Of a stretch of DNA of 26,772 nt, positions 4,980 through 22,263 are shown piece after piece. The stretch lies in IMG/VR virus record IMGVR_UViG_3300005921_000013, positions 1 to 26,772 of that record. The stretch is one strand, 5' to 3'. How positions within the stretch are numbered: the first letter of the stretch is position 1; each line of letters opens with the position of its first letter. Source of the stretch: a virus. The translations under genes were made by a program, and so were the position numbers. The notes beneath the pieces were generated by a model. The model had not been told where the DNA came from. It worked only from the letters and a program-made list of their open reading frames with translations, and did not search any database.

Positions 4980-5807
4980 TCAGGCCGTGAGTTTTCTGAC
5001 TCGCGCCAGTTCCGCTTTACCGGCCAAGGTAAGCATGGAGGCAGGCAACTCTGACAGCCCGTACACCGGTTCAACCCAGCACGAACAAAAAGGCTCTTCC
5101 GCCACGGCTGTCACCTCGTCGTAGTATTGATGGCCATCCAACTTCACGAAGCCGCGCTTCATCGCCCAGCTCCCGCGCAACAAGAATATTCTGCCGTCGC
5201 GCTCGACGTGCTCGGGCCGAGAGTCATACGCTGGCGGACCTTGTTTGATGTGCCTCCAGATATAGGCAATAGCCCCGCCGTCCACCGCGATGATATCGTG
5301 TATCGCGGCCACCAGTTTGTGGCCCTGATCGATGATGACCACGCGCTCACGGTGCGGCAGCCCTGAGATCGATCGGCGTATCAGTTCGCCCTCCTGCGCC
5401 TTATCGACCGCCTTGGAGCCGCCCGCAGGAATGGATGTTGCCCAACCTGCCAGGCGCTGCAGCGCGCGTTGACGCGAGGCCTTCTGATCCAGTGTGATCA
5501 GACTGACCGATGCCAGAATGCGACGATTCAATTCCGCTCGCAGCCGTGGTGCCAACTGCTGCAGCTTGAACATCGGCACGCCAGGATGGCGCTTCATCAA
5601 GGCAGAGGGTCTGCGAACGGTGCGCTCGAAGATCTGCGTGAGATGCTGGGCGAGCCTTTTCTGCAGCTCGTGCGCCGGCATGAGCGTCGCGCTCATCGAG
5701 GTCTCGATGCGTGCCAACCACTGCTCCAGCCGAGCCTGGGAATCAAAACCGTGAGCTGCGAACTCGCGTATGGCCTCGTTGACCACCGCGTAGAAATTTC
5801 CTCTCAC
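4980..5807 (-). CDS. Head morphogenesis protein, Mu F / SPP1 gp7-like
   Basis: This 275-residue minor head protein probably acts at the portal vertex during head assembly. The N-terminal 140 residues are helical and basic. The diagnostic part is the C-terminal domain: ELIRRSISGLPHRERVVIID (141-160), then YDSRPEHVERDGRIFLLRGS (194-213), then YYDEV (228-232) and EEPFCSCW (237-244), which match the Mu F-type core in which an arginine/histidine-containing YDxRxxH segment precedes a Cys-x-Cys site. The start overlaps the end of the portal gene by four bases, the usual portal-then-F order. Confidence 0.82.
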   Translation of the reverse strand: MRGNFYAVVNEAIREFAAHGFDSQARLEQWLARIETSMSATLMPAHELQKRLAQHLTQIFERTVRRPSALMKRHPGVPMFKLQQLAPRLRAELNRRILASVSLITLDQKASRQRALQRLAGWATSIPAGGSKAVDKAQEGELIRRSISGLPHRERVVIIDQGHKLVAAIHDIIAVDGGAIAYIWRHIKQGPPAYDSRPEHVERDGRIFLLRGSWAMKRGFVKLDGHQYYDEVTAVAEEPFCSCWVEPVYGLSELPASMLTLAGKAELARVRKLTA

Positions 5808-7345
5808 TGCACCGCCGCTGCAACCGGTCGGCCAGGAAGACGCGCGAGCGCTGAACGAAAGTGACTCAAAGAGTCATTCCTGCTCTGGGCGCCGCGACCC
5901 GCCGGCTTGCCGCCGCCATCGGCGTTGTCATTTTGCAGGGAGGCCTCGAAGCTCTTGTTCTCGCGATCCTTGTTTTCCTCAAAATGAGCCAGGAGCTTGT
6001 CGACGTCCAGATTCAATTCTCGCGGCAACAGCGTCTTGATCTGGCTGAGGTTGTCGCACAGCCACTCGACCACTTCGAGCTTGTTGTCCGGATCCAGCTG
6101 CGGCATCAGAAGCTCTGCGACCGCTACCATCGCCTCGAACTTGACCGCCTCCCCCTTGGCCTGCTCGCCCGGGGGCTCGACCAGCATCGAGGGCCACGTG
6201 GCTTTGAATGCGCGGCACCACTCGGAAAACGCAGCCTCATGCGTCACGTTCTCGTACTCTTCAGGATACAGCGACTTGATACGGGTGAAGAATGCCGGAT
6301 TCATCCAGGCGCGGTAGCGAATGATGTTGTCGAACCAGTCGTAGTCCGGTTTCATTTCCAAACGCTCGCCGTCGATATATTTGGAAATGTTCTTCGCATC
6401 CTCGGTGCCTTCCGCCATGCCGCCGATCATGGTCTCATTCTGCAAGAGTTTGGCTGGCATGTTGGCCGCTGTCGCGCAGTCCTTGAGGATATTGTCACGC
6501 GCGAAGGTGCCAGCCGTATCCACATTGTTCATGTCGAGGGTTTCTATTTCCTCGGTCAGATCAATGGTCGCGATTTCACCGTTGGTGGCTGCCTTGAGCA
6601 GCATGCGCTTGAACGCCGCGATGCCCTGCATGACCTTGTTGATCACACCGCCCGGGGACTTGAGCTTTGCGATGAACAGCGCGATCTTGCCGGCGATTGA
6701 GTCGTTCGCGATCATCGTCTTGATGTACGACTTCATCGGATAGAGCGCGCGCTGATAGACGCTGCGGCCGGTGAAGCCAAAGGTCGATGGCGTGAAATCT
6801 ATATAGATCGTCTGCTCGTTCATCACCACTCGAAAGCGCGAGCGGTGATAATTCTTGCCGTTGCACACGACGCGCACGACTTGGTTGAACTCAGGGGTGT
6901 TCGGCACCTGATTCATGATCGCGGAGCCGGACATATTCAACGGATCGAACACGTTGAAGAATATCGGAAGCTCCCACAGCTTCTTCATGTCCAGCGCCTG
7001 GTCGGTGGGCGCATCCTTGCAGCCCAGTACCAGAGAGGCCATGCCGTACACGCGCGACAGGCAGCGCAGGTTCAGAATGTGCGTCTGGCAGCAAAACTGC
7101 GTCCATACCAATTCGAACTCTTCGGCCACTTCCGGTGGGTGATTCTGGACCGTTACCGTTCGTGGCTGGCTCTGTGCCATGCGGATGGGCGCCTCGGCCA
7201 TTTTGGCGCCCAGCGGATGCAGCGTGTAGAGCGCCTTGCATACCTGATAGCTCGGTTCGGTGCCGGGCTCGATCTCATCGGCCTTGAGCAGTTGCAACAG
7301 GCCTTCGCCTACGGCAGTGCCGCCATCAATGGTCACGATAGCCAT
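5804..7345 (-). CDS. Portal protein, DUF1073-like
   Basis: This 513-residue protein is the probable dodecameric portal through which DNA enters and leaves the head. Family features include an N-terminal segment describing the portal wing (YTLHPLGAKMAEAPIRMAQS), a central FNVFDPLNMSG region, the conserved ALYPMKSYIKTMIANDSIAG stretch, and the crown-proximal KLLQNETMIGGMAEGTEDAK followed by YIDGERLEMKPDYDWFDNII. The C-terminal 50 residues are hydrophilic (DNADGGGKPAGRG). The ATG directly follows the stop codon of the upstream exported-protein gene with no clear ribosome binding site, suggesting translational coupling to the cassette. Confidence 0.85.
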   Translation of the reverse strand: MAIVTIDGGTAVGEGLLQLLKADEIEPGTEPSYQVCKALYTLHPLGAKMAEAPIRMAQSQPRTVTVQNHPPEVAEEFELVWTQFCCQTHILNLRCLSRVYGMASLVLGCKDAPTDQALDMKKLWELPIFFNVFDPLNMSGSAIMNQVPNTPEFNQVVRVVCNGKNYHRSRFRVVMNEQTIYIDFTPSTFGFTGRSVYQRALYPMKSYIKTMIANDSIAGKIALFIAKLKSPGGVINKVMQGIAAFKRMLLKAATNGEIATIDLTEEIETLDMNNVDTAGTFARDNILKDCATAANMPAKLLQNETMIGGMAEGTEDAKNISKYIDGERLEMKPDYDWFDNIIRYRAWMNPAFFTRIKSLYPEEYENVTHEAAFSEWCRAFKATWPSMLVEPPGEQAKGEAVKFEAMVAVAELLMPQLDPDNKLEVVEWLCDNLSQIKTLLPRELNLDVDKLLAHFEENKDRENKSFEASLQNDNADGGGKPAGRGAQSRNDSLSHFRSALARLPGRPVAAAVQ

Positions 7346-8536
7346 CTACGGATGCGGCGTGCTGGCGTCAGGTGGAAACGAGGTCCACAACTCCTCGCGC
7401 GCGAAATCAGCCACCAGCTTGGCGCTGGTTGAGGCGCTGCTGTTGGTGTAGAGCATGTCGGAGAAGATACGGTTAACATCCTCGTCCGCTGGTCTATTAG
7501 CGCCTTCATGCGCGCCATTGACGTAGGTGTACGCGCTCTGCTGATAGGTGAAGTTGCTGTCGAGTACATGACCGTTGATTGCCGCCCAGCAGAATCCGGA
7601 GGAACTGGCAGAGCCGCGCATCGCAAACTCGATCAGGAACCAAGTATTGATCGGCACCGGGAACACCGCAGGATCGAACTGATCCTGAAATGCGATCTCG
7701 TAACCGCTGGTCGGGAATCCGTCCGCGATGATCTGAAACTGAGGACTCGTAGCAGTAAAAGAGCCGTGCGCGGCGCCGGTAGTGAGGCCAAGCGAGCAGC
7801 GGTACGAAGAAGTACCGGTCTTGGACTCTTCGATCGTGTAGAAGGCACCGCCATTGGAGTTGGGGGCCATCGAGAAATTCGGACCGATTCGCGCCCAGAA
7901 TCGGTAGTACCACATGTCGCCGATATTGCCGGTCGCGGCCCAGTGGATGCCGACCTGCTGCTCACTCTTGCCTGAGATGCCGCCGATGTTGCCGTCGAAT
8001 GGAACCTGACGAGTGGCTTCCAAATAGTTGACTGTCTGACCGCAACCTGGAAGCGCTGGCGTACCGCATGCTGGAAGCGTGGCACCAGTGAGAATGCTAG
8101 CCGTGAAATCCGTCGATGCATTATCGGCAATGATCTGCATCTCGTCCGGCAGCGATGGGGCTACCGACGCGTTCCACACTGATTTCGTGTTGGGGTAGAC
8201 GAACCCGGTGACCGTGTCTGTGCCCTGAATCTGTCGGGTGCCGTCGTTGGCGCTGATCGCGCCGTTGACGATGGTCAGTCCCTGATAGCTGTACTGGTTA
8301 TAGGCTCCAGCAAGGAAGCCGCTGCTGGTGCCACCGCTAGAGCCGCCAGAGGAAGAACTGGATGAGGACGAGGAACTGCTACCGCCAGAGGATGAAGAGC
8401 CGCTGCTGGTCGCGTTACCAGAGAGCGTGCCGATGAGCGCCGGCAGCGGTGTCTGCGCTGAAATACTCAGGGCTAACGGCAGCACCAATGCGACGGCGAG
8501 CCCAGAGAGCGCGCACAGTTTCAGCAGGCTTTTCAC
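7346..8536 (-). CDS. Exported protein with Ser/Gly linker and lectin-like jelly-roll candidate
   Basis: The 396-residue product begins with a Sec signal: after the GTG start, KSLLK, a hydrophobic core (ALSGLAVALVLPLAL) and a probable cleavage at SISA|Q. The GTG at 8536 follows the upstream stop codon by one base. A longer ATG start at 8584 would put 16 extra residues ahead of the signal and lacks a ribosome binding site. A Ser/Gly linker of about 35 residues follows. The rest is beta-rich, with MWYYRFWARIG, INTWFLIEFAMRGS and CWAAINGHVLDS, the layout of concanavalin-A-like lectin/glycanase folds, where a surface-sugar-binding or lyase role is common. Catalytic residues cannot be assigned. The gene abuts the portal gene. 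Confidence 0.72.
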   Translation of the reverse strand: MKSLLKLCALSGLAVALVLPLALSISAQTPLPALIGTLSGNATSSGSSSSGGSSSSSSSSSSSGGSSGGTSSGFLAGAYNQYSYQGLTIVNGAISANDGTRQIQGTDTVTGFVYPNTKSVWNASVAPSLPDEMQIIADNASTDFTASILTGATLPACGTPALPGCGQTVNYLEATRQVPFDGNIGGISGKSEQQVGIHWAATGNIGDMWYYRFWARIGPNFSMAPNSNGGAFYTIEESKTGTSSYRCSLGLTTGAAHGSFTATSPQFQIIADGFPTSGYEIAFQDQFDPAVFPVPINTWFLIEFAMRGSASSSGFCWAAINGHVLDSNFTYQQSAYTYVNGAHEGANRPADEDVNRIFSDMLYTNSSASTSAKLVADFAREELWTSFPPDASTPHP

Positions 8537-8537
8537 T

Positions 8538-10154
8538 TCACGCCGCGTCGCGCAGGTCGTTCGCCGCCACCCAGGCTGGCGCATGAGGGGCTATCAGTTT
8601 GGTCAAACCTCCGCCGGTGATGAGCCACGCCGCGCTGAATTCCTTGCAGGCCACTGCTTTTCCGTATGCCGCAAGTGTGCGCGAGCCGGTGGAACCCACT
8701 GCCGTGGTGCTTCCGAACCCTAATACAAGCTCGTCGGTATTGATCGTGATCGTAATTGGGCCAGAGCCTCCCTCATTGAAGAACGTGATGCAGGCGCCAA
8801 TGGGGTAGTTGACCTGACCAGAACCACAGGCGCTGCAAGGGATGGTGAACGTGCAGCCGCTGGTGGTCGCGGTGTGCGCAATCTCCTGGCCGTTGTCGGA
8901 AGCCTGCAGTGTGTAATTGCAGGACTGCGCGTTCTGCACGATCTCAAGGGTGCCGATATCGATCGTGCCGCCGTTAGCACCTGGCAGGTTGTAGGTCGTG
9001 GGGCTCGATCCAGCCGGCACATTAACGGTTAGCGGCGCCCCTACAATCGCGGTAGCTCCAGCCCATGTGAGGGCGCCCGTATTGTTAGCGCCCGAGCCGC
9101 CCTGCGCAGGCGTCACCACAGTCTCGCCAGTGATCGACGTGCTGCCAGAGAACAGCGCGATCTGAGGCGAAGCAGGCGAACCCGTAGTCGTGACGGTGCC
9201 TGATCCTCCGCCGCCTCCGGCCGGGACTGCACAGGCGCCGTCGCCGCGCAGGAAATTGCTGCTCGAGCATCCCCCTCCCCATAACCCGATGATGTTGGTC
9301 GCGGTCGCGATACCGAATGGCGTGGTCCCGCGCCCGAGCAAAATCCCGGTCAGACTCGTGGCCCCACTCCCGCCGCTGGATACTGGCAATACCGAGGTGA
9401 CGCCGGTGGAAAGACTAATGGCCGGCAGGTCGGAGGAAACAATCGCTCGCGGCGCGAACGGGCCTGATCCTGAAACCGAGGCCGGCGACATGATAGCGAG
9501 CCCGGGAGAAGCCGAAGCGGACGTAATGGCAAAGGTTCCGCTGCTCGTGATCGAGCTTGGCGAGACGGAGAGGTAACTCGGGACGCTGATCCCGATGCTG
9601 GTGACGGTGCCTGATCCGGAGACTGTCTGACAGCTACCATCGCCACGCAGGAATGTCGCCGAGCTACACGTGCCGGTGAATAGCCCGGTGATATCGCCCA
9701 CCACCGCGTTGGTGATTGATGTCGCGCCAGAGAACGCCGCCAGCACATTCGTGGTGACCGTGCCGGTTGTGACAACCGTTCCACCGCCGGCCGGAGTGGT
9801 GCAACCACCGGCACCATTCAAGAATGACAGCGCATTGCCGGCGCATCCGAACAACGTATAAACATTGGTCGCATTCGCGACTGAGAAAGGCGCGGTGCCA
9901 TTTCCCAATATCAGCCCTGTGAGCGTGGAGACTCCTGTGCCACCCACGGGCACACCGAGCACGCCGGTCGGAAAGATGTAGCCTTGAATCTGCGACAGAA
10001 GAAAGTCTGACGTGACCCCGTTCTGATCACCCAGTAACCGCTCAGCGCCGGAGAATGGCGGGATTGCAGTGGGGTACTGCCCCACTTCCTGCGCACGGAT
10101 ATCACACGTGCACGCAAGCAGCGCCAGCACAGCGGCCAGCTTTTTCAATCGCAT
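8538..10154 (-). CDS. Exported tail-fibre-like repeat protein with paired cysteines
   Basis: This 538-residue protein starts with MRLKKLAAVLALLAC, either a Sec signal cleaved near RAQ|E (22-23) or a lipoprotein signal with lipobox LLAC (C15). Residues 23-62 (EVGQYPTA...FSGAERLLGDQNG) are homologous to the start of the 655-residue protein in this cassette. The body has phage-fibre repeats GGTGVSTLTGLILGNGTAPF (71-90) and GGSGATSLTGILLGRGTTPF (261-280), and three DGxC modules with cysteine pairs 104/118, 163/175 and 296/308. The C-terminal domain (about 410-520) resembles those of many fibre proteins (NYTLQASDNGQEI ... TLAAYGKAVACKEF ... WLITGGGLT). GGAGG lies seven bases before the ATG. It is likely an adhesin; whether it joins the virion or stays on the cell is open. 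Confidence 0.78.
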   Translation of the reverse strand: MRLKKLAAVLALLACTCDIRAQEVGQYPTAIPPFSGAERLLGDQNGVTSDFLLSQIQGYIFPTGVLGVPVGGTGVSTLTGLILGNGTAPFSVANATNVYTLFGCAGNALSFLNGAGGCTTPAGGGTVVTTGTVTTNVLAAFSGATSITNAVVGDITGLFTGTCSSATFLRGDGSCQTVSGSGTVTSIGISVPSYLSVSPSSITSSGTFAITSASASPGLAIMSPASVSGSGPFAPRAIVSSDLPAISLSTGVTSVLPVSSGGSGATSLTGILLGRGTTPFGIATATNIIGLWGGGCSSSNFLRGDGACAVPAGGGGGSGTVTTTGSPASPQIALFSGSTSITGETVVTPAQGGSGANNTGALTWAGATAIVGAPLTVNVPAGSSPTTYNLPGANGGTIDIGTLEIVQNAQSCNYTLQASDNGQEIAHTATTSGCTFTIPCSACGSGQVNYPIGACITFFNEGGSGPITITINTDELVLGFGSTTAVGSTGSRTLAAYGKAVACKEFSAAWLITGGGLTKLIAPHAPAWVAANDLRDAA

Positions 10155-10173
10155 GAGATGTTCCTCCGGAACT

Positions 10174-10398
10174 CTAAGGGTTGAGTGGCGCGCCGCCGGA
10201 ATTCATCACTGGCGCGCCGTCACTGTTGGTGACGACTGTTGAGATGGACGTCGTGAGAATCATTTCATCCGATGCGAGCGCAAGCGAAAGCGTGATCAGA
10301 TAGTTCTTGCCGTTGGCGGCCACAGATAACTTGAATGGCACGCCGATCTTTAGCGCTGGCACTGGGACCGCTGGGGCTGGTGCGAGATCGGCTGACAT
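10174..10398 (-). CDS. Small hypothetical protein without export signal
   Basis: This 74-residue protein has no recognisable family. After a Pro/Ala-rich start (ADLAPAPAVPVPAL) come short beta-prone segments (FKLSVAANGKNYLITLSLAL) and a Gly/Asn/Pro-rich end. It lacks a signal peptide, unlike both flanking genes. Its ATG overlaps the stop codon of the glycine-rich gene by one base (TGATG), so it is translationally coupled. It may be an accessory or chaperone-like partner of the adhesins, which is conjecture. Confidence 0.65.
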   Translation of the reverse strand: MSADLAPAPAVPVPALKIGVPFKLSVAANGKNYLITLSLALASDEMILTTSISTVVTNSDGAPVMNSGGAPLNP

Positions 10399-12365
10399 CA
10401 GGAAGTGGTGATTGCCACGACGTAGCCTGCGCCGCCGTTGCCGCCTGCGCCGGAGGCGTTGCCGACGGCACCCCCTCCTCCACCACCGCCTGAAGCCTGA
10501 ATTCCGTTACCGCCGCCACCCGCGTTACCAGTCGTGCATCCGCCACCACCAGCGCCCGCAGAGCCTGGTGAATAGCCAGAAGCTGATGCGGCTCCAGCCG
10601 CGCCCACCGTGCAGATGCCGGCGCCATTAGCCCCAGTGAGCAGAGGATTGGATCCTGCGCCTCCACCGGCTTGGGCCGTGGGTGAGGTAGACACGCCGCC
10701 GCCAGAACCACCCCCCGGTGCGCAGCGACTGACTCCGCCTAAGGTTCCTGCGCCCCCGCTGGGCGTGCCGCCGCCTCCAGCACCAGAACAATCTCCGCCA
10801 CTGGCTCCGCCTTGCGATCCGGCCCCACCGGTACCAGCGTTGACGCCACCGACGGTGCCACTACAGCCGAACCCTGGAATCGCAAGGCCACCGCCTCCTC
10901 CACCGCTGGATATCGCGCCAGATGCTCCACCGGTGCCCAGACAGCCGCCGAATGCTGAAATCCATGGCGTCGTGCCGAAGCTCGAGGTATTGCCATTGGT
11001 GCCGTTGTTGCCGGCGCCGGATGAGACGGAAGCACCACCGCTACCCGCGGCACCCACTACGACTGATTCGGTGGATCCGAGCGATGCGGTCGCAAATGCG
11101 GTCCACTCGGTGCAGCCACCCCCTCCCCCGCCGCCGCCGCCGGAGTTTGCGGTGCCCGAGGCGGTGACGGCGCCGGAACCTGCGCCACCCCCTGAGCCGC
11201 ACGCCTTTACCCACGTGACTTGAGCCGCGCCGCTCCCGCAGGACGCCGGTTTCGTCCACGTCTGTGTGCCCGCGGTGGCGAATACCTTCACGTCGACCTT
11301 GCAGGGAATGGCTAGCGCTGACTGTGTCGTGGCGACAGAGATCGCCGTGGGAGCAGCCGAGGAGCCAGTGTTGTTGGCGAGGAAGGTGTTGGCGGCCTGA
11401 GAGACCAGACCGCTCAACGGCAACCCGGTCGCGTTCGTGAGCACTGCGGCCGATGGCGTACCGAGCGCTGGCGTGACAAGGGTGGGCGAAGTAGCCAGTA
11501 CGTTGTTGCCGGTTCCAGTCGTCGTCTGCGAGACGAACTGACGCGATGAATTGGTGCCGATGACCGAAGCCGAAGCGGGCACTGCGGCGCCATTCACCTC
11601 GACGGCATTGGTCGCCGTGATCGTGCCGGAGCCGGCAGTGCCAAGCGAGCAGCCAGTTCCGCAGACCATCGCAGCGGAAGTATTGGTGCCGGAGACAATC
11701 CCGCTGAAGGCATTGCCACCTCCGCCACCGGCTTGGCAAGTGCCGTTGGTGGCGAAGAACAACGATGCGGATGAGACGTTGCAGCCGGTTCCTGAGACAG
11801 TCAAATTGTCGAGCGCAATCGGCTTGATCGACCATGTTGTGGCGGTAGTGTCAATCGTAATCGCGCCGCTGGTGGTGATGTCCCAGAAGGAGCCTGCATA
11901 GACGCCGCCTAAGCGCACATGCACGGCCGCGAACTGGAATGCCTGAAGCGTACCTGCGGTTGGATACCATGTCGGTCGCGTCCATGCCCCGCTCTGACAT
12001 ACCCACGGGCCGTTCTGGCTGGCCGTGGTCTGAGCGGTCAGCAACTCGACTGATACACCTACAGAGCAGGCCACCGAATCGATGGTCTGCGCGCCAGATA
12101 GCGTGAGGTTGCCGCAGGTCGCATCGCACACCGAGGTGACAGCCGGCTTGTTGCTGAGCGCGGCTTCGCTGTCGATGATCGGGAAGAAGTACTGGCCCAA
12201 CAGGGCTGGCGTGATGTCTACCGTCAGTCCGGCCTGATCTGCCAGCATGCGCTCGGGTCCAAGGATGGGACCTGCGGTGGGATAGCCGCCGACCTCACTG
12301 GCATTCGCGATGAGTGCGCACGCACAGGCCGCCAGCGCTGCAGCCAGCCGCTTTAGTGATCGCAT
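10398..12365 (-). CDS. Exported glycine-rich adhesin, tail-fibre-like
   Basis: A 655-residue protein with an export signal MRSLKRLAAALAACACALIA: Sec type I (cleavage near ANA|S) or lipoprotein (lipobox LAAC, C14). Residues 24-62 are homologous to the 538-residue neighbour. Residues 64-180 hold a beta-rich module with QNGPWVCQSGAWTR (118-131) and GGVYAGSFWDITTSG, a pattern found in phage appendage proteins. Then come the cysteine-paired module C195/C210, one copy of the [15 protein letters not shown] repeat shared with the 1270-residue protein, and FATAGTQTWTKPASCGSG, which opens a C-terminal domain of about 260 residues dominated by Gly, Ser and Ala. Such glycine-rich tips form polyglycine-helix receptor-binding heads in some phage adhesins. 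Function as adhesin is inferred. Confidence 0.78.
   Translation of the reverse strand: MRSLKRLAAALAACACALIANASEVGGYPTAGPILGPERMLADQAGLTVDITPALLGQYFFPIIDSEAALSNKPAVTSVCDATCGNLTLSGAQTIDSVACSVGVSVELLTAQTTASQNGPWVCQSGAWTRPTWYPTAGTLQAFQFAAVHVRLGGVYAGSFWDITTSGAITIDTTATTWSIKPIALDNLTVSGTGCNVSSASLFFATNGTCQAGGGGGNAFSGIVSGTNTSAAMVCGTGCSLGTAGSGTITATNAVEVNGAAVPASASVIGTNSSRQFVSQTTTGTGNNVLATSPTLVTPALGTPSAAVLTNATGLPLSGLVSQAANTFLANNTGSSAAPTAISVATTQSALAIPCKVDVKVFATAGTQTWTKPASCGSGAAQVTWVKACGSGGGAGSGAVTASGTANSGGGGGGGGGCTEWTAFATASLGSTESVVVGAAGSGGASVSSGAGNNGTNGNTSSFGTTPWISAFGGCLGTGGASGAISSGGGGGGLAIPGFGCSGTVGGVNAGTGGAGSQGGASGGDCSGAGGGGTPSGGAGTLGGVSRCAPGGGSGGGVSTSPTAQAGGGAGSNPLLTGANGAGICTVGAAGAASASGYSPGSAGAGGGGCTTGNAGGGGNGIQASGGGGGGGAVGNASGAGGNGGAGYVVAITTS
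10420..11170 (-). repeat. Low-complexity glycine-coding tract
   Basis: Minus-strand GGN-rich sequence with runs of glycine codons (up to nine in a row near 11130), encoding the glycine-rich head of the 655-residue adhesin. The plus strand reads as an artefactual proline-rich frame. Such tracts are prone to slippage and exchange. Confidence 0.75.
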
Positions 12366-12380
12366 GGTTTTAGCGCGGTC

Positions 12381-12755
12381 CTACTGCGGGTACATGCTCA
12401 AATTCACGGTCGGCGTTCCCGTGCCGCTCAAGGCCGTGACATTTCCGCGCACGTACGGCCATGCGGGAGATGTCACGGTCGTGGAGCCGAACAACGGATT
12501 CGAACTGCCTAAGGCAATCGTGGCGATGACGACCCACCCGACACCAGGATCCTGCGTGGCCTCGACATTGACGCTGGCGATTCCTCCAGTCGTGACCGAG
12601 GCCAGGAACGAGGAGGACGGATACTGCCGCCACGAAAATTGCGCCCCTGCCCCGGTGGCGGTGACGGCCTGCAGGAGGTAGGTGCCAGGAGACAGCGCTA
12701 GCGCAGGAAGCGTCAGAGCCAGACACGCTACCAGCGCCGATAAAAGCCGCTTCAT
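12381..12755 (-). CDS. Small exported beta-rich protein
   Basis: This 124-residue protein begins with a textbook signal peptide (MKRLLSALVACLALTLPALA, cleavage probably after the ALA). The mature part of about 100 residues is beta-prone, with FSWRQYPSSSFLASVTTGG and WVVIATIALGSSNPLFG. I do not recognise a family; an Ig-like or small jelly-roll fold is plausible. It sits between two larger exported fibre-like genes and is co-directional and closely spaced with them, so it is probably co-expressed. Confidence 0.72.
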   Translation of the reverse strand: MKRLLSALVACLALTLPALALSPGTYLLQAVTATGAGAQFSWRQYPSSSFLASVTTGGIASVNVEATQDPGVGWVVIATIALGSSNPLFGSTTVTSPAWPYVRGNVTALSGTGTPTVNLSMYPQ

Positions 12756-12760
12756 GGCTT

Positions 12761-13525
12761 TCAGCCCTGCAATGCGTTCTTGCGGCAGTGCATATGACCC
12801 GTAGCCGTGAGTGCCGCGACGGTGAATGTGGCGAGCGAGACGTTGTACACCGAAGTCACCGCGCTCAAGGCCTGGCGCACGTAGGGAGTGGTGAATACCG
12901 GATCATTGGTGCCGGTGAGCACATTCGCTGCGGTTTCAAAGTCGGTATAGGTACCCAAATTGCCAATCGTGGTCGCGGTCTGAGAAATGCCCTGTTGCAG
13001 ATTGGTCACTGAAGTGGAGGTTGCTGGCACGTAGAAAGTGCTGCCCATGCAATCCCAATCCCCGGCCGGCAGACTCACGCCAGCGGTCGGCAGTCCCGCA
13101 GTGGTGGTGAGCGCGAGCGTGCTGGTGAGATTCGCGGTGCTCGAGGCGCCGGTAGTCGCGACGAAAGTTCCAGCCAGAGCATTCGCGGCGCTGGTGGCCA
13201 CATTGAAGGTGCCAGCCGAGACGCTGATCGGCACGATCCAGTAGTTGGTCGAGGACGACAAACCGGTTGGCGGATTGGCGGTGATCGTGATGGGGCAGGT
13301 CCACACGGCAATGGCTGAGCCAGACCACGGAGGCGAGGCCCATGTGCCCACCGTGGGCGTTGCGTTGGTGAAGGATACGGACGCACCGGAGGTCGCGCTC
13401 GGGCAATTGACCTCGACGTACTGGCCGGGATAGGTCGTCTGTGCCAGCGCTGGAGTGGCGATGGTACCCAGCAGAGCCAATGCAATGGCTGCAATCAGAC
13501 TTGCACACAGGGAATTGAGCTTCAT
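12761..13525 (-). CDS. Exported hypothetical protein, beta-rich, with paired cysteines
   Basis: The ATG at 13525 is chosen because GAGGAG lies eight bases upstream and the resulting N-terminus is a signal peptide (MKLNSLCASLIAAIALALLG ... ATPALA|Q). An upstream in-frame ATG at 13609 would place 28 hydrophilic residues before the signal. The mature protein, about 225 residues, is Thr/Ser/Ala-rich and beta-prone. It has four cysteines (VNCPSA, WTCPI, DWDCMG, MHCRK) that could form two disulfides outside the cytoplasm. The segment STNYWIVPISVSAGTFNVAT recalls repeats seen in phage and surface proteins. A hairpin terminator lies just upstream, so this gene may have reduced expression or its own start. 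No family recognised. Confidence 0.74.
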   Translation of the reverse strand: MKLNSLCASLIAAIALALLGTIATPALAQTTYPGQYVEVNCPSATSGASVSFTNATPTVGTWASPPWSGSAIAVWTCPITITANPPTGLSSSTNYWIVPISVSAGTFNVATSAANALAGTFVATTGASSTANLTSTLALTTTAGLPTAGVSLPAGDWDCMGSTFYVPATSTSVTNLQQGISQTATTIGNLGTYTDFETAANVLTGTNDPVFTTPYVRQALSAVTSVYNVSLATFTVAALTATGHMHCRKNALQG

Positions 13526-13549
13526 GACATCGACTCCTCGAAGGTTTTG

Positions 13550-13578
13550 GAAATAAAGAAAGGCTCGCGAAGGCGAGC
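13550..13578 (-). terminator. Rho-independent-type terminator after the beta-helix gene
   Basis: On the minus strand, GCTCGC-CTTC-GCGAGC forms a tight 6-bp stem with a four-base loop (13578-13563), followed by CTTTCTTTATTT. It lies about 45 bases after the stop of the 717-residue beta-helix gene and about 35 bases before the next start, so it may split the exported cassette into two expression blocks. Confidence 0.6.
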
Positions 13579-13622
13579 TTTGGACTAAATTGTTGGTTCG
13601 CTCTCTCATCCGCTGCGGACTA

Positions 13623-15776
13623 TCAATGCAGCGTCACCGAGCCGCGAATGTTGACATTTCCCCTGATCGTCTCACGGATGTTACTTGCAGAGGAAAAGTA
13701 AGCGTTAAGCACATAGTTGCCGGATAGTTGACTAGGAGTCGCCAGACTGCGAGTCGTCGAGCCCTCTGTTTCAGTCGCCCAGTAAGGCCAGCCAGCGCCA
13801 TTGACGTATTGCTGGATCAGAATGGAAGGCGCCCACAGACTTGAATTATTAACGATCATCGCAGCCCCTGTGGCGCCGGTCGCAGAGCTAGGATAGATCC
13901 ACTGCGTGTAGATCTCGGCTTTTGCTCCGACACTGAGGCTGAACACCGAATTGGTGGTAGCGATTTGCTCCGTCTTTAAGGCAAGTATCCATAGATTGCA
14001 GCCAGCGCAGAAAATCTCTGAACCGTTGGTCGCGTACTCAAAATCAAACTGCCGCGCCCAGATGCTCTGACCTGCAACGAATACTACGCCAGGATGATTG
14101 CCGCCAGTGTCGTCTTCAAAGAAAACGTTTCCAGCTCCGGCAGATGCGGTGTAGGTCCGGTAATAAGAGTCGTTGATGACAACTGTTCTGGACCCGGTAT
14201 GCAGGAATGTACATACGTCATAAATGCAGCCGTCGATGACAAGCGGGGTGGAGGAGCTTCCGGCAACTGTGATATTGAAGGTCGGATTCTGGGCTGTGTT
14301 CAGACTGTTATAGAAATTCAGATGATTGACCGTATCCGGCACCGTAATGCCGATCACACCGCTTCCGGTGACGTAAGTCCCGGGTGGTGCATAGACTGTC
14401 GCCGATGCCGAGCCTGAGATTTGCGAAGGCCAGTTAGCTTGGTTGGTTCCCAGCACCGTCCAGTTTGATTGCGTCGGATCATCTGTTGGATTAGGAGTCT
14501 CGGCTTCCGGAAGGTGCAAGTACCCAGGAGTTCCGCCGAAAAGACTTGATGCAGTGCCGGTCCAGTTTTCCGTCAGATTACCTGTGTACGTGACCGGAGT
14601 TCCTGTCCCGGTATCCACTTCGCATGGGCTGTAACTGCCGCAGGAAACGTTGCGGGCGTAAAGGGTTCCACCTGAGCCGACCGTGATCCCAGTTCCTGAG
14701 CCGTTCAAAAATTCTGAGTCGAGCAGCGAGACCGCACCGGGAGACGTGATACTCAGCGCCGCAGTGGTATTGTCATTCAGCCAGTGCTGGATAGCTGCAT
14801 TGTAGGGACCTGTATTGATTGCAGTGCCTACCTGGCCTTCCGTGGTGATCTGATCGAAGGTCTGTGAGTATTCGTTATTGATGCTGGCGATAGCGTTCGT
14901 GCAGCCATAGATCGCCACATTCTTCACAATGCCTGGACCGGAATATGCCCTGGAAAAGGTAAGCGCATTGGCGCACTGCGAATCCTCAGCCCAGATGACG
15001 ACATTGCGATAGGCACCTGAATTATTTTCCTGATCCGCGATCAATTGGATGCCGGGGTTTCCGTAGCCGGCATCAAATCCCATATTGTAGACGTAATTGC
15101 GGAAGCTGCTCGCGGTGCTAACTGAGTTGGTGTTGATCCACACGTTGTTTGCAGCAATCCCGCTATTAGGAGCCAGCCGCAGGATCGAACTTTGAGGTCC
15201 GCTTCCGAACCAGGTAAAGCCATTGCCGCAGGGCTGTACTTTATTGCTGACTAGATAGACACCTGCTGGCCAATACAGATACAGCACATGCGTGGGCGTG
15301 GCCCCGCAATTGCCGTTCATATAGACCGCGAGCAATGTGTTCAGACATGTGGTGTTGTCTGTCACCCCATCCCCGACCAGGTTGCATGTCGCATTGCTTG
15401 TCACGTTGAGCGCTGGATTCGTCGGGCCTCCGAAGAATCCAGGGGGATAGGTGACGCTTGGAGTTAGGTTTGCGCCGTTTCCATCCGAGGCTATGACCAC
15501 AAGATTGTTGTTAGCCGTAGCGATCGAATATCCGCTGCACGCGAATGTCCCTGCGGAAATCGTGATCGGATAGGTGCCGGGCGAAGATCCAGAGGTCGCC
15601 GTCGTGCTTAGAGTCGGAGCTCCGGTACACGTGGTCGTGTAGGTGTTCTGCGACCAGATCAATGGGGGCACAGGCTGGCCCTGTTCCATCGTCAGATGTG
15701 TCGCAGTCAACGTGATGGTCTGCGCGAAGGCGGATACCGGGAGCAGTAACAGTGCAAGAAGCAGGCGCATTTTCAT
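13623..15776 (-). CDS. Exported right-handed beta-helix protein (pectate lyase/GH55-like)
   Basis: This 717-residue protein has a clear Sec signal (MKMRLLLALLLLPVSAFA|Q, cleavage after residue 18). Residues 20-96 form an Ig-like MBG-type domain (CTGAPTLSTTATSGSSPGTY). From about 130 the sequence matches the pectate-lyase superfamily entry pattern GDGVTDNTTCLNTLLAVY, followed by YWPAGVYLVSNKV (168-180), and long Asn/Gly/Ser-rich beta-helix coils. A second such entry appears near YAPPGTYVTGSGVIGI, as in two-lobed GH55-type folds. Related phage proteins are depolymerases that cut capsule, LPS or exopolysaccharide; catalytic residues cannot be assigned here. Many cysteines fit an oxidising compartment. 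The start follows the upstream stop by two bases without a clear ribosome binding site. Confidence 0.8.
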   Translation of the reverse strand: MKMRLLLALLLLPVSAFAQTITLTATHLTMEQGQPVPPLIWSQNTYTTTCTGAPTLSTTATSGSSPGTYPITISAGTFACSGYSIATANNNLVVIASDGNGANLTPSVTYPPGFFGGPTNPALNVTSNATCNLVGDGVTDNTTCLNTLLAVYMNGNCGATPTHVLYLYWPAGVYLVSNKVQPCGNGFTWFGSGPQSSILRLAPNSGIAANNVWINTNSVSTASSFRNYVYNMGFDAGYGNPGIQLIADQENNSGAYRNVVIWAEDSQCANALTFSRAYSGPGIVKNVAIYGCTNAIASINNEYSQTFDQITTEGQVGTAINTGPYNAAIQHWLNDNTTAALSITSPGAVSLLDSEFLNGSGTGITVGSGGTLYARNVSCGSYSPCEVDTGTGTPVTYTGNLTENWTGTASSLFGGTPGYLHLPEAETPNPTDDPTQSNWTVLGTNQANWPSQISGSASATVYAPPGTYVTGSGVIGITVPDTVNHLNFYNSLNTAQNPTFNITVAGSSSTPLVIDGCIYDVCTFLHTGSRTVVINDSYYRTYTASAGAGNVFFEDDTGGNHPGVVFVAGQSIWARQFDFEYATNGSEIFCAGCNLWILALKTEQIATTNSVFSLSVGAKAEIYTQWIYPSSATGATGAAMIVNNSSLWAPSILIQQYVNGAGWPYWATETEGSTTRSLATPSQLSGNYVLNAYFSSASNIRETIRGNVNIRGSVTLH

Positions 15777-15778
15777 GG

Positions 15779-18700
15779 CTAGTTCTTGTACTCAAGCACG
15801 GAATAGTCACTTACTATGACCCAGTCAAACTGCGATGTTTGGATGAAATCCTGAAAGGTGTAGTTCGCAGCGTTCGCCGTGTTGATAGAACGGGGAGTGG
15901 AAGTCGGGGTGGCGCTGTTGACGTAATAGATGTTGTCCTGTGACGTGGCCACCCCAGTATTGATGGTCGTGCCCTTGACTCCGACCAGCGTCGTCGTACT
16001 CATCGCATTGCTGAGTACGCCGTTAGATCCAAAGTTGGCAGCACAGGTCTTGCTGCCTGCGCTGTTATTGGCGGTACACCTGAATTCAACTGTCAGCTTG
16101 CCTTGGGCGCCCATGGTGCCGGCGCCGATGGTCGTGCTAGGACCATAAACAGCGTTGATAGTCTGTGCATACGCTGCCGGTGTGAGACCTGAGAATGCAG
16201 TGGTCGATGGAACAAGGGGAGCAGTATTGGCGGTATAGGTGTTGTTGAAGCATGTCACTACCGCCAGGGAGACTCCCTGACAGAAGTAAGTTCCAGCCGC
16301 TCCCAACGGGCTCGCTGGAAGCCCGACAAACATGTTCGCGTGCACCGCATCCAATGGTGCTGAGAACAGTTCTCCGAGCGTGTAAGTCAAACCTGTCGGA
16401 GTGCCAGTTGTGGTGACGACAGCCGCTCCGGACTGCGTTGTCAGCGTAGCGGACCCCACAGCGGCAGCACTGATGAGGTACGTCGTCGGGTTAGAGTAGC
16501 CCGTGATCGATCCGGTACCTCCGAAAGTGCCGGAAATAGTCAGAGACATGCCGTTGACAAGATTCGCGCAGGTGCAGGTGATCTGTCCTGCAGTACCGCT
16601 TATGACTACAACCGAGATCGTTGCCGCACTCAACCCAGCAGCGTTGGTAGCTGTGTAAATCGGACCGCTCACCCACGGCGTAAATGGTCCTGTGCCGGAA
16701 GCGGTTGCCGAGAGCGTACAAGTGGCAACCGTGCTACTGCTGAAAGCCGTGATCGCGCAGACTTTATAGGTCGTGTCCAAGAACACGATCTGCCGACCGA
16801 CATCTCCAGCGCTGGTGCCTGTGAGCGTAGCCGCGCTGAATGTCGCCGTGACTGATCCACTGGTCGCGCTGAATGAAACGGTCTGCCCCGAAACCGGCTG
16901 CTGCCCAAAGATGCAATTGCCGGTGGCATCGCAATAGCCGCTGGGAGCTGCAACAAAAGGCAATCCGCTTTGAAGCGCGACCGGAGAACTCGGAATGCAT
17001 CCGCTCGTGGTGATGCCGAGATTGGAATCGTTACAGACAGCGGTTCCTGGCGCGCCGGTGAGGCTTGCAGCAGTCGGTATATTGGTGTCCGTCCCGAGCA
17101 GCGGATAAATTGATGACGCAACGGCGCCCGATCCATTAGGCGCTCCAGTGACCCACGCGCCACCGCTGCCGGGACTAGATGGAGGCTCATAAACCGCGCC
17201 CGTAGTGACTGTAGGTGGCGCAGCCCATGAAACCGCGCCAGAAACAGCAGCGGGCGCTATAGAAGTCGGAGTCATATCGATCTGAGACGATTGGACATTA
17301 CTCATCGTCTCGCTGCCGACAGTCTGGGAAACGCTGACGGTGTAACTACCTGTCCCTCCGGTGCCGGTGCCGAGCGCACTGATAGTTGTCCCGGCTGTAA
17401 TCCCCGTGCCAGTGATTATTTGGCCCACACCCAACGAAACTCCGCTACTTAGGGCTGTGACATTGAGTGTCGTGCCGGAGATCGATGCTGTGAATGTGCC
17501 GCCGCCGCCAACCGCCATTGGCCCTGTTATCACAGGCGTCGTTAGGTCTAGATCAGTGAGCGACCCCGTCGCCGCTCCGCTGAAGATCGGATTGATATAC
17601 GTCTTGTTAGACAGCGTAGCAACATCGCTCACACCATCGATCGCGCTGCCGCCGTTGCTGAGAACGCCGCTAGGAAGATTGCCGGACGCCAACCCGGTAC
17701 TCGGAGGCAGCCCGGTGAGATTCGTCGCTACACCGGAGGCAGGAGTGCCCAATGCTGGAGTGACCAATGTGGGCGAGGTTGCCAGAACGGTCGCGCCCGT
17801 GCCGGTGCTGGACGCGAAGGACGTAGTGGCAGATCCGGCCGTCGTCGTGACCACTCCGCTCAAAGCGGGCAATGCAGTGGCTGGAAGTGCGCTCGCGTTG
17901 CTCAGATTGATCGAGGAGGGCGTTCCAAGAGCCGGAGTCACAAGACTCGGGGATGTTGCTTGAACGAGCGCACCGGATCCGGTAGTCGTCGCAGCGATAA
18001 TTTGATTGGAACCGTTGGATGCGAGCGCGGGGGCGGAAGTCGGAATCACCGCGCCGTTGACCTTCACCACGCTCATTGCCAGAGAACCGGCGCTATTGGT
18101 CGCATCTCCCGTGTGCGCTGGTTCTTGAGCCGCCTGCAATGTGCCGGTGACGCCGGTGGCCAATGGCAAGCCGGTTAGATTGGTGAGCGTGCCGGATGAT
18201 GGGGTTCCCAGTGCTGGCGACACCAGAACGGGCGACGTCGCTTGAACGATGGAGCCACTGCCGGTAGTGGTTGCCGCAATGATCTGGCGCGATGAATTGG
18301 AAGCCAGCGCCGCTGAGCTCGCCGGCACTGCGGCGCCATTTACTTGAGCGACGCTCGGATTGGGATAGCTACCGGACAGATCCCCGCCCGCGCTGCCCGA
18401 AGGGATGGCCCCAGTAATGGCGGTATTGCTGGCGGATGTGAGCCGGCCATCGGCTCCGACCGTGAAACTTGCAACCTGCGTGCCGCTGCCATAACTGCCG
18501 GCCGTGACCGCGGTGGCTGGCAATCTGGCGGCTGGCAAACTGCCGCTTGAGATATTGGCCGCATTGGTCGTGTCGGTGGTCGCAGAAGGCGCGAACGCGA
18601 CGCCGCCCGTTTTGGTGACGCTCGTAGTAAGGCTGCCAGCCGTATTGGTCATGTCCCCGGTATGCGCGGGCTCCTGTGCGGCTTGGAGCGTACCGGTCAG

Positions 18701-19591
18701 GCCAGTGGCCGGAAGCCCTGTGCCATTGGTCAGCGTCACGGCTGATGGAGTGCCCAGATTAGGCGTGACCAGCGCCGGACTGGTGGCTTGTACCGTAGCA
18801 CCGCTCCCGGTGACCGAGGCGAAGCCAGGGTTAGGATACGTGCCGCTCAATACCCCGCCAGCTGCACCGCTTGGAGGCACCCCGGTGATCGCGACATTGG
18901 CCGCAGCGCTGAGGCGCCCGTCAGCCCCTACGGTGTAGGTCGGGATCTGGGTGCCCGAGCCATACGATCCTGGAGTGACGGCAGTGGCTGCCAGGGAGAT
19001 CACGCCCGATGCGGATAGTGTGGCCGCCCCGCTCAGGGTCTGCGGGACATAAGCCGTGCCGCCTGAGTTGCCGACAGGAATCTGTCCTGCCGTGGGAGCA
19101 CTGGATGAGCCAAGGCCGCCCAGGCCAGCCCCCAGCGGGCCGGTGATGCCACCGGTGGTCAGGTTGAGCAGCGTTGCCGTGGAGCCCGCGCTCGTGGTGA
19201 CCGGACCGGTGAAGGCCGGCAACGTGCTGGATGTGCTCCTGCAGGTCCCATCCGCGTAGGGCACGAGCGTACTTGGGCTCGAGGTGCATGACGTCCACAG
19301 CCCGATGATATCGCCGAAGGTTGCCGTACCGGCGCTCGCCAGGTGCGCGCCAGTCCCGAACATGTTGTAGAGCGGGTTGACGGCGTTGTTGTACTTAGCA
19401 CCAAAGATCGCCCAGGTGTCGCCCGTGTTTGTGTTGAACGGGCCGGTGAGCGTGCAAGCGGTGCTGGTTGCGCAGTCGGCGACTGAGGCGGAGAACGCCG
19501 GCGCAAACTGGGCCTGTGCCATTGGAGCGCCCGCAATGATCGCTAGCACACCAATGCCTGCCGCGATCAGCAGCCGCTTGATTGAGGTCAA
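15779..19591 (-). CDS. Large exported tail-fibre-like repeat protein
   Basis: This 1270-residue protein starts from TTG at 19591, preceded by GGAG with a nine-base gap, and opens with a signal peptide ([20 protein letters not shown] ... MAQA|Q, cleavage near 27). After a short N-terminal part with cysteine pairs 40/46 and 102/117 comes a repeat zone (about 165-640). It has two long units containing GSYGSGTQ ... TVGADGRL ... SYPNP, and four copies of the TSPxLVTPxLGTPS motif. Next is an Ig-like module ([20 protein letters not shown]) and a beta-rich C-terminal domain ending YSVLEYKN. The repeats are typical of phage fibre shafts. Role as adhesin or fibre is likely; location is unusual because of the export signal. 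It is the first gene of the cassette after the terminase region. Confidence 0.8.
17708..18791 (-). repeat. Tandem-type repeats within the large fibre gene
   Basis: Four copies encoding variants of TSPxLVTPxLGTPSxxxLTN lie near 17708-17789, 17881-17963, 18166-18247 and 18708-18791. Two copies of a unit encoding [13 protein letters not shown] lie between them. A fifth copy of the first motif is in the glycine-rich gene near 11410-11500. They could support recombination between fibre genes. Confidence 0.7.
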
Positions 19592-19616
19592 AGGATGTTA
19601 TCTCCGGGATCTGGTT

Positions 19617-20051
19617 TTAAGGTGTGCGCACGATCTCGAACAGGGCGCGCCGCGTATACACGTTATCCGTGCCGTCGGTCACACTCACGAGCAGCGCGTG
19701 GGTTTCGCAGGAACGGCTCACAGAAACCATGGCGTTCTGCGCCGCGCTGATAATGATGTTGCTGTTGGATTGAAGCGGCAACTGTGTCGGGCCTAAGATT
19801 ACTTCCCCTGAGAGAAGATCAACGATCTGATAACTGAGCGCAGCCGGCTCCAGAGGCGCCCCATTGATATCGAAATAGGTGCACTGGAAGTTGGCAGCGC
19901 TGCCCGACAGAAAGGCTGCACGCGGGGTCAGGAAACCTATTCCGCTCTGATTGAGCGGCACGATCGTGGCATAACCGAACTGACTGGCGCCGCTGATGAA
20001 CTGCGTGTCGCTGTCGATCGTCTGGCCAGTGGTATCTATGGTATCTGCCAA
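19617..20051 (-). CDS. Hypothetical Ig-like beta-sandwich protein
   Basis: The 144-residue product starts from TTG at 20051 with GAGG eight bases upstream. It has no signal peptide. The central part, YFDINGAPLEPAALSYQIVD followed by LSGEVILGPTQLP, and the C-terminal ETHALLVSVTDGTDNVYTRR suggest a beta-sandwich of Ig type, a pattern common in small phage structural proteins encoded near terminase or tail genes. It lies between the nuclease-like ORF and the exported cassette. A structural or connector role is possible; no named family is recognised. Confidence 0.7.
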   Translation of the reverse strand: MADTIDTTGQTIDSDTQFISGASQFGYATIVPLNQSGIGFLTPRAAFLSGSAANFQCTYFDINGAPLEPAALSYQIVDLLSGEVILGPTQLPLQSNSNIIISAAQNAMVSVSRSCETHALLVSVTDGTDNVYTRRALFEIVRTP

Positions 20052-20082
20052 CTAGAATCCCTCTGGGTTACCTAAAGCGGCT

Positions 20083-20637
20083 TCAGCTACCCGTCTGCAG
20101 CGCCAGGAGCGTGCCGGTGCACCAAGCGTTCAGCACCTCCACGGCATCGGCTTCTTGGCCCGCTCTGTAGCCCTTGATCTGACGCAAGAGGTGGTTCGCG
20201 TTGGTGCCCTTGAAGTTCTGTGTCTTCTCGAATGCAGGGGGCGCAAGCTTCACCTGACCGGCATGCATGAACACCATGGCCTGCGTGGCGCGGCCATCCA
20301 GATCCAGTTCAGCGATATCCTCGCGTACCTCTCGCACGTCATGGCCAGCCTTGTGAGCCTCCAGCATGACTACTTTGCCAAAGCCAGCGGCCTCGGCGTA
20401 TAGCACCATGTCCTCCGGATAGAGAACAGCCTTGTACAAACGTGCCAGCTCTTGCAGCCGCCCGAACACGCTTGGTACATACGTCGGTAGTCCGGTCTCG
20501 ATGGGCGTGATGCTCCAGTCAATTGCCATCAGCGGTGTCTGGTCCCACGAACAGAACGAGAAATACACCGTGCCCAATGCCTGACGCAGCGCCGAGGCGG
20601 CCGAGACCGCGAATACCGTCTCCACGGCAGGCAGCAC
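20083..20637 (-). CDS. Stand-alone TerL nuclease-domain-like protein
   Basis: This 184-residue protein is separate from the full-length terminase just upstream yet resembles the C-terminal RNase H-fold nuclease domain of another terminase type. It has CSWDQTP (29-35), matching the WD motif that carries the first metal-binding Asp; a helix with RLQELARLYKA (60-70); VLYAEAAGFGKVVML (78-92), where E82 matches the acidic residue of the IED-x-G motif; RATQAMVFMHAGQVKLAPPA (116-135), resembling the RA...AGxVxLP motif; and EADAVEVLNA (162-171), where D164 matches the final Asp. A GTG start at 20637 has AGGAG ten bases upstream. It could be an accessory packaging nuclease or a terminase remnant. The assignment rests on motif order only. 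Confidence 0.55.
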   Translation of the reverse strand: MLPAVETVFAVSAASALRQALGTVYFSFCSWDQTPLMAIDWSITPIETGLPTYVPSVFGRLQELARLYKAVLYPEDMVLYAEAAGFGKVVMLEAHKAGHDVREVREDIAELDLDGRATQAMVFMHAGQVKLAPPAFEKTQNFKGTNANHLLRQIKGYRAGQEADAVEVLNAWCTGTLLALQTGS

Positions 20638-20658
20638 CGATTTCGTGCTCCTGATGCC

Positions 20659-22263
20659 CTAGCGTCGAGCCAGCAGCGCCGATTCAGGGAAGAAGCTGCT
20701 GTCGCTGCAGGGGGCGAATGCGATACATACCGCATCTGCCAGATTGGGAGACTTGAAACCGGCCGGGGCTTTCTCGATCAGCACTTTGCCTGCTCCATTG
20801 ATCGAATAGGTCGGTTGCGACAATTCCTGGGTGAGTTGCGCAAGTTCTGGCAAGTCCTCGGCAATCGATATCAACTCGTCCGTGTCGAACTTGAACCCGG
20901 GCTCGTTGAGCGCCCGATGCGTGTGCTCGAATCGCTTGCGCAGCGCCATCCAAGACTGCGACTTGAGATTCGCGAAGTGGTCACGATTCGTGCGTCCCGG
21001 TACCATCTCGCCATCCGGGTCGCTGGGCGGGGCACTGCCGCGGTAGGCATGATCGTCTACCCAACTCTGCCCGTGCTCACGACGCTGCTCGTTGATGACC
21101 CGCGAATCCCCGCGCACGCCGGCCCCAAGGCCATCGGCATCATAGTGGAACGAGGCATATCCAAGGGTGTCGCACAACAGGAAGCATTCCTGCACAGTGC
21201 TGAAGATGTCGCGCGACTTGCCAGACCATGACTTCAGGTGCTGCAGTTCCTGTCCGTATCGACCGGCAAAGGCGTTGCGGTCCAACCCCTCGTCGGCCAC
21301 ATCCAGCGCAGCTCGGTGCTCGCCGGATGCCGCGAGTCCGAGCTTTGACAGTGCCCCTACCGCGCTCTGCACCCATTCGGCCGGGATCAGGATGCCTTCC
21401 TGGGATGCCAGATAGTTGATATCCAGTTCCTGAGCGGTGATCACCGGTCCCCACTGCTCGAGGAACTCCTCGTACATCTTCTGCGTGAATCGCGGGTTGT
21501 CACGCCAGTGGAACGTGAACTTGCGCGAGAAGCCGTCGTGCATGCGCAGCGAGAAAGTGTTGCCCATACCGTGTACCGAACTGATGTCCTGGCGGCAGTT
21601 CGTATTCTTTGACAGCGCGGCGTCCACGCCCTGGTCGCGTTCCAGATAGGCCGCCTCGTCCACGAAGTACACCGCAGTTCGACCGCCGCGGCCGATCTGA
21701 TCGCCAATCTCACCGATCATCGATGACTTGCCTCGATTCGGAAATAGCAATCGGCAATCACGGCTGTGGTAGCGGCGGTCGTATCCGCCACGTAGTTCCA
21801 AAGGAAGGCCGTCGAGGAACGCGCGGGCCTTCTCGAAGAGCGAGCCCATGTCGCCGGAACGATCAACCTTGTCCTGCTTGTAAGAACCCAAGCCGACAAT
21901 CACATTGTCATACAGTGTGCACAGGGCGATCGCGAACGACACGGCGAGCCAGGAGCATCCCACGTCACGGCTTTTTTCTGTGCCGCCATAGCGCCCGTCG
22001 CGCCAGTTCAACTCCGTGAACTCAATCCACTCGCGCTGCCGCTTATCGAGCGTGAATGGCATGAATACCGGCAGACCCGTCCCCACGTTTCTGGGGTCGA
22101 ACGTCGTTCCCCACTCGTTGATGAAATCAGCGATGTGCGTGCGGTAGTAAGTCCTGATCTGCTCGAAGCGACCCGGTGCCGAGCGCAACCAGCGAAGGCG
22201 GCGCGCGCGCTCGCGCCAGAGCCCATCAAAGGGGTCAAGTCTCTCAACGGCTGAGGAACTCAC
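20659..22263 (-). CDS. terL: Terminase large subunit (packaging ATPase/nuclease)
   Basis: The motor protein that pumps DNA into the prohead and cuts it. The 534-residue protein has an adenine-binding region (PFTLDKRQREWIEF, 69-82), a Walker A-type loop EKSRDVGCSW (96-105), a Walker B segment AVYFVDEAA (197-205) with the catalytic Glu, and a coupling motif near SSVHGMGNT (228-236). The nuclease half begins with ALDVADEGLDRNAF (319-332), where D321 and D328 are candidate metal ligands, and continues with FHYDADGLGAGVRG. The GTG start overlaps the stop of the small subunit by four bases (GTGA), so the two are translated together. Length and domain order are normal, so it is complete. Confidence 0.9.
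   Translation of the reverse strand: MSSSAVERLDPFDGLWRERARRLRWLRSAPGRFEQIRTYYRTHIADFINEWGTTFDPRNVGTGLPVFMPFTLDKRQREWIEFTELNWRDGRYGGTEKSRDVGCSWLAVSFAIALCTLYDNVIVGLGSYKQDKVDRSGDMGSLFEKARAFLDGLPLELRGGYDRRYHSRDCRLLFPNRGKSSMIGEIGDQIGRGGRTAVYFVDEAAYLERDQGVDAALSKNTNCRQDISSVHGMGNTFSLRMHDGFSRKFTFHWRDNPRFTQKMYEEFLEQWGPVITAQELDINYLASQEGILIPAEWVQSAVGALSKLGLAASGEHRAALDVADEGLDRNAFAGRYGQELQHLKSWSGKSRDIFSTVQECFLLCDTLGYASFHYDADGLGAGVRGDSRVINEQRREHGQSWVDDHAYRGSAPPSDPDGEMVPGRTNRDHFANLKSQSWMALRKRFEHTHRALNEPGFKFDTDELISIAEDLPELAQLTQELSQPTYSINGAGKVLIEKAPAGFKSPNLADAVCIAFAPCSDSSFFPESALLARR

Follow-up and report, generated by a model that had tools for sequence, protein, structure and literature searches.

Eight genes inserted between terminase and portal

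The window analyzed here, the whole of a 26.8-kb virus fragment (26,772 nucleotides; IMG/VR record IMGVR_UViG_3300005921_000013), contains eight genes that lie between terminase and portal, inside a late structural operon and all co-directional on the minus strand. Listed in the direction of transcription, with their flanks, the genes are as follows:

22260, minus strand: TerS
20659–22263, minus strand: terminase large subunit (TerL), upstream flank of the block
between terminase and block, minus strand: two small genes, among them the next entry
19617–20051, minus strand: 144-aa protein without a signal, just outside the block
15779–19591, minus strand: 1270-aa fiber-repeat protein, TTG start; signal 19511–19591 (27 aa, AQA↓Q)
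13623–15776, minus strand: 717-aa spike; signal 15723–15776 (AFA↓Q); MBG domain and Pect-lyase beta-helix
12761–13525, minus strand: 254-aa predicted exported protein; signal 13442–13525 (ALA↓Q)
12381–12755, minus strand: 124-aa predicted exported protein, all-beta in a low-confidence model; signal 12696–12755 (ALA↓L)
10398–12365, minus strand: 655-aa fiber; signal 12300–12365; decoration-like domain and Gly-rich tip
10174–10398, minus strand: 74-aa protein, the only signal-less gene within the block and the eighth gene of the earlier note
8538–10154, minus strand: 538-aa fiber; signal 10092–10154, with the weakest score of the seven (4.0)
7346–8536, minus strand: 396-aa predicted exported protein, GTG start; signal 8456–8536 (ISA↓Q)
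5804–7345, minus strand: portal protein, downstream flank of the block
4980, minus strand: MuF-type head protein
2883, minus strand: NUDIX/protease fusion
between NUDIX/protease fusion and major capsid protein, minus strand: small head protein
1124, minus strand: major capsid protein

The portal gene directly follows TerL in Burkholderia phage Magia, Pantoea phage PdC23 and others, and we therefore regard the block as an insertion in the late operon; terminase relatives with adjacent portals are mostly without signals. The intergenic gaps in the block amount to about 0–25 bases, except for 97 bases before 13525, and a sigma-70 scan of positions 5000–22800 gave no promoter match on its coding strand.

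Like phage tailspikes and tail fibers, the block and its relatives combine repeat modules, a pectate-lyase beta-helix, an S74 chaperone and adaptors with a place in the structural operon; of these spike features, the window itself has the beta-helix, the fiber repeats and the adaptor, while S74 occurs in the relatives. The beta-helix that the earlier note had read in the block is borne out, in the spike, by a Pfam Pect-lyase match (E 1e-10), and the mature part of this protein has 14 cysteines. The 1270-aa protein carries the adaptor motif GPxNTNTGDxxxxxGxKxNxxxxxLYxMFGxGxHL behind its signal. The 655-aa fiber, with 18 cysteines in its mature part, and the 538-aa fiber share the N-domain EVGxYPTA...GxERMLxDQxGxTVDI, and the latter ends in a C-terminal domain common to signal-less fibers of other phages. 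In the 396-aa protein, a Ser/Gly linker leads into a C-terminal domain that matches no known family, so that the lectin-like domain claimed for it found no backing; a sequence search of solved structures returned no useful match, and the AlphaFold models of this protein (from the single sequence, pLDDT 33) and of the 124-aa protein (pLDDT 53) were too poor for fold searches. Domain searches found no peptidoglycan-hydrolase domain in any block protein.

Export signals and cysteine content

The accepted view places the folding and assembly of tail fibers and spikes in the cytoplasm, and these proteins normally carry no export signals. Seven of the eight block genes nevertheless have Sec-type N-termini, as the earlier note had claimed, and the starts it gave (19591 with TTG, 15776, 13525, 12755, 12365, 10154 and 8536 with GTG) proved correct. 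Clear Shine-Dalgarno sequences precede 19591, 13525 and 10154, and the start at 13525 is better supported than the alternative at 13609. All seven N-termini show the layout of n-region, h-region and cleavage motif, with a basic n-region and an AxA-type site.

We scored the signals with a purpose-written scorer calibrated on 40 kb of E. coli K-12, where, with labels set by ourselves, all exported proteins scored 4.5–5.3, no cytosolic protein was picked up and three inner-membrane proteins were false positives. The seven block signals score 4.0–6.4, comparable to true E. coli signals, with that of the 538-aa fiber being weaker. The remaining minus-strand genes of the window score zero, apart from a spurious internal start (3.4) in 10174–10398, and the mature parts of the block proteins hold no transmembrane-grade segment. 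Shuffled N-termini reached the observed score in 0–2.5% of trials, and the background among co-directional ORFs in related phage loci is 1.4% at scores of at least 5 and 3.4% at scores of at least 4; at this related-locus rate, seven signal genes among eight adjacent ones would arise by chance with a probability below 1e-9. The shuffling and the background rate rule out a chance origin of the signals. The sequences LAAC in the 655-aa fiber and LLAC in the 538-aa fiber are readable as lipoboxes, and the homolog in contig G002 aligns to a signal peptidase I site.

We compared the mature parts of 34 signal-bearing proteins from the window and its relatives with 21 signal-less fiber and baseplate proteins that we chose as controls. 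The signal-bearing proteins contain 16.0 cysteines per 1000 residues versus 7.5 in the signal-less ones (Mann-Whitney 3e-5, a value made optimistic by relatedness). Moreover, cysteine counts are even in 27 of the 31 cysteine-containing signal-bearing proteins (binomial 1.7e-5) versus 8 of 18 signal-less ones (Fisher 0.003), p-values which are again optimistic for partly related proteins; in a first, smaller set, the corresponding counts of 17/18 and 17/24 were unconvincing. The excess and the even counts fit disulfide bonds that would form outside the cytoplasm. As a side observation, roughly two in three of these 34 proteins can be read as having glutamine as their first mature residue.

The sister contig and wider relatives

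The closest relative is the sister contig G001 (IMGVR_UViG_3300037199_000073, sequence L090), with a portal 72% and a capsid 94% identical to those of the window. It has the same insertion before the portal, in the form of eight consecutive genes that all bear signals, and only some of these are homologous to genes of the window. Between the two contigs, the signals of the 254-aa protein (11/28 identical; mature part 79%) and of the 1270-aa protein (8/26; mature part 63%) have diverged more than the mature parts, whereas in the 124-aa protein the two are about equal (13/20; mature part 68%); in all pairs, the signal type is kept while the letters drift. The homolog of the signal-less 19617–20051 protein has a signal joined exactly at the start of the window protein. 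The 396-aa protein has a counterpart in a GH26 glycosidase (E 8e-11; its PDB matches are mannanases), which occupies the same place in the operon and has the same linker style, and the sister contig also encodes an S74 chaperone spike. Pattern scans with the 254-aa and the 124-aa proteins matched the sister contig only, and nothing was matched when the portal by itself or the 396-aa protein served as the pattern. There are two further observations: TerL is unrelated between the window (20659–22263) and the sister contig (L090 12281–13717) despite similar portal and capsid, a terminase swap, and KLxAP(xAP)xW motifs common to the C-termini of 8538–10154 and of L090 2474–4489 and 4493–5296 are possibly traces of recombination at gene ends.

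Further relatives were fetched by portal, or by terminase in the case of contig G004, and large contigs were examined in pieces; these relatives are few and not independent, and the pattern-limited scans give no estimate of frequency. Large signal-bearing proteins occur in G002, G003, G004, G005, G006, G009, G015 and the isolate Shewanella phage vB_Sb_QDWS, and G007, G008, G011 and G014 offered no clear spike-type case. Where the context was read, the signal genes run in the late-gene direction. Their location varies: some lie past the lysis genes, some between the connector and sheath genes, and some behind the baseplate genes. G004 has a GH5 domain and G006 an S74 spike as well as a CHB_HEX/Fn3 protein. 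Two proteins of G002 in spike position (L190:5034-7259 and 7597-9639) have Tat-like twin-arginine signals, and in one of the two the number of cysteines is odd. G004 also encodes a protein (L091:9724-11088) in which a degenerate repeat built around (A/P)QDTxQxNLL recurs about ten times, and in G007 two neighboring signal-bearing proteins (L199:4328-5002 and 4995-5630) end in PEP-CTERM-type sorting motifs.

Phage vB_Sb_QDWS (OK094664.1) is a culturable member of this set, with a portal and a capsid about 43% related to those of the window. Its spike frame (L222, 14004–16067; 687 aa) encodes a signal, fiber repeats and a beta-helix, of which the GenBank start at 15260, 269 codons downstream, loses the signal and the fiber repeats. 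Start-codon calls can thus hide a signal. The earlier note had considered that homologs might start downstream of the hydrophobic segment; those in G001, G002, G004 and G006 keep the segment, and the GenBank call in QDWS is the only one that starts downstream, in a frame that is open upstream and matches a tail-fiber family there (residues 80–325 of the longer frame). 'Hujiaoplasma phage zrk29-1' (OP650936.1) has the same genome length as QDWS (47,902) and a 100% identical spike, and the stated hosts of the two come from different phyla. A similar, weaker signal-bearing spike (score 4.0) is found in an Acinetobacter prophage. Independent contigs, the same operon logic and homologs that keep the signals rule out chance, annotation artifact and host contamination.

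Some of these genomes also have a conventional fiber: in G002, G003, QDWS and the Acinetobacter prophage, a signal-less fiber lies next to the baseplate genes, and in the first three it has a Gp10_C or gp53-like C-terminal domain. Since the relatives also keep this fiber, the exported proteins appear to be a second set rather than the only fibers of the phage; the tail module is absent from the window, so that the separate fiber is known from the relatives. The fibers of the related enterobacterial isolates PdC23, Yersinia 29.18 and Chronis, as well as those of the Magia, Limnohabitans and Manatee Spring phages, have no signal, whereas the block proteins bear signals and are richer in paired cysteines.

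Recurring adaptor domains directly follow the signals and precede very different C-termini. In four lineages, an A-x-A↓Q cleavage site precedes the adaptor GPxNTxTGDxxxxxGKxNANxxxLYSMFGxxSxL; the other adaptor, EVGxYPTA..LxGxERMLxDQxGxTVDI, is common to two window genes and one G002 protein, with looser forms elsewhere. When IMG/VR was scanned for the adaptor by itself, the matches were G001, G004, G006 and a single further contig, G045, and each of them has a signal before the adaptor. In G045, four signal-bearing genes cluster between head-connector and sheath-type genes (gene names are our reading), and its adaptor protein has a predicted lipoprotein signal (LLAAGC), the only clear lipobox that we found.

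It could be argued that the N-termini are uncleaved hydrophobic docking segments of ordinary virion fibers, given that the proteins are otherwise fiber-like and encoded within a structural operon. We consider this very improbable: all three elements of a signal, namely the basic n-region, the h-region and the AxA site, have survived the drift of the letters, the A-x-A↓Q site persists in four lineages, the scores equal those of true E. coli signals, cysteines are in excess and paired, and homologous signal-less fibers have no such segment. Because the signals are kept in the sister contig and recur in related phages, and because cysteines are enriched and paired, the reading of the block proteins as fiber-type and built for export is, at the level of sequence, well supported. 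This part of the earlier interpretation stands, and the lectin-like domain that accompanied it found no confirmation, with no family match and a pLDDT of 33; the roles it had named, namely surface display, lysogenic conversion and superinfection control, or appendages assembled outside the cytoplasm, are possible.

Possible roles of the predicted exported proteins

Late phage proteins that take the Sec route via an N-terminal signal are known from the exported endolysins, such as Lys44 of Oenococcus phage fOg44 and the SAR endolysins (PMC6116005). Unlike the block, with its runs of spike-like and polysaccharide-active proteins, these are singly encoded lysis enzymes. The tail-type proteins PblA and PblB of Streptococcus phage SM1 reach the bacterial surface via permeabilization by holin and lysin (PMC2920869), but they are different proteins of a Gram-positive host with no described signal. 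In our literature search, which was partial in coverage, these two cases were found and exported spike clusters were undescribed. The GH26 and GH5 proteins with signals resemble the phage-borne glycoside hydrolases of environmental viromes, where they count as auxiliary metabolic genes. Here, however, their genes are neighbors of spike-type genes and show the same layout of a signal plus modules, which suggests that they serve infection and not the carbon metabolism of the host. This would recast phage glycosidases of environmental viromes as infection tools, and points to new secreted depolymerases.

We infer actual export, disulfide bonding, timing, and the place and target of action from these features, and think that little-known environmental phages probably deploy a second spike set outside the cytoplasm of the infected cell. 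The block would encode spike, fiber and depolymerase proteins made late in infection and sent out through the Sec machinery of the host, with Tat export or lipoproteins as occasional variants in relatives; after cleavage by signal peptidase, they would fold with disulfide bonds in the periplasm. As we saw no feature for outer-membrane secretion in the proteins of the window, a Gram-negative host would keep them periplasmic until lysis. From the periplasm, their targets would be glycans of the cell envelope and, after the cell opens, those of its surroundings: capsule, O-antigen or matrix polysaccharide that they would bind or trim. This would open a path for progeny and strip debris of receptors, while receptor binding by the virion would be left to the separate signal-less fiber. 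That such a set, after periplasmic export, acts on glycans of the envelope or matrix no later than lysis is a reading of the sequences to which we give an even chance. The adaptor domains and the S74 chaperone, which are typical of virion proteins, speak against it.

The same features would be expected under the main alternative, in which the spikes are exported, cleaved and trimerized in the periplasm, encounter virions as the inner membrane opens at lysis, and attach to the baseplate via the adaptor. The adaptor is conserved behind the signal over different C-termini and weakly matches the N-terminus of the baseplate-wedge family phrog_958 (E 0.007), two proteins carry the S74 chaperone, and the gene right behind the canonical fiber gene of QDWS, and likewise of the Acinetobacter prophage, is that of the signal-bearing spike. 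Yet we found no described tailed phage that builds its spikes in this way, one adaptor-bearing protein is a predicted lipoprotein that would remain in the membrane, and the glycosidase domains behind Ser-rich linkers resemble free secreted enzymes, so that we regard such virion spikes as unlikely, though worth serious consideration. In a broader form, a lineage of tailed phages might build part of its spike apparatus extracytoplasmically, with proteins exported by Sec, by Tat or as lipoproteins, disulfide-bonded and trimerized in the periplasm, and displayed on the infected cell or added to virions at lysis; this we propose tentatively, leaning slightly to the doubtful side. If true, it would amount to a second, extracytoplasmic route of fiber maturation in tailed phages. 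Repeated export signals on spike-type proteins break the rule of cytoplasmic assembly and imply a putative exported, oxidized set that binds or cuts glycans.

Instead of acting late, the proteins might be expressed from a prophage and decorate the surface of the lysogen, altering adhesion or blocking superinfection. QDWS has an integrase and a repressor, G007 has the PEP-CTERM surface-type proteins, and Acyl_transf_3 genes of the O-antigen-acetylase type adjoin the signal-bearing spike genes in G002 (L190:3415-4500), G003 (L193:10218-11267) and QDWS (L222:12959-14011). On the other hand, no integrase was seen in the window fragment. The block genes are spaced by only a few bases within the late operon, and no promoter of their own is evident; this speaks against expression chiefly from a prophage, and we consider lysogenic conversion improbable.
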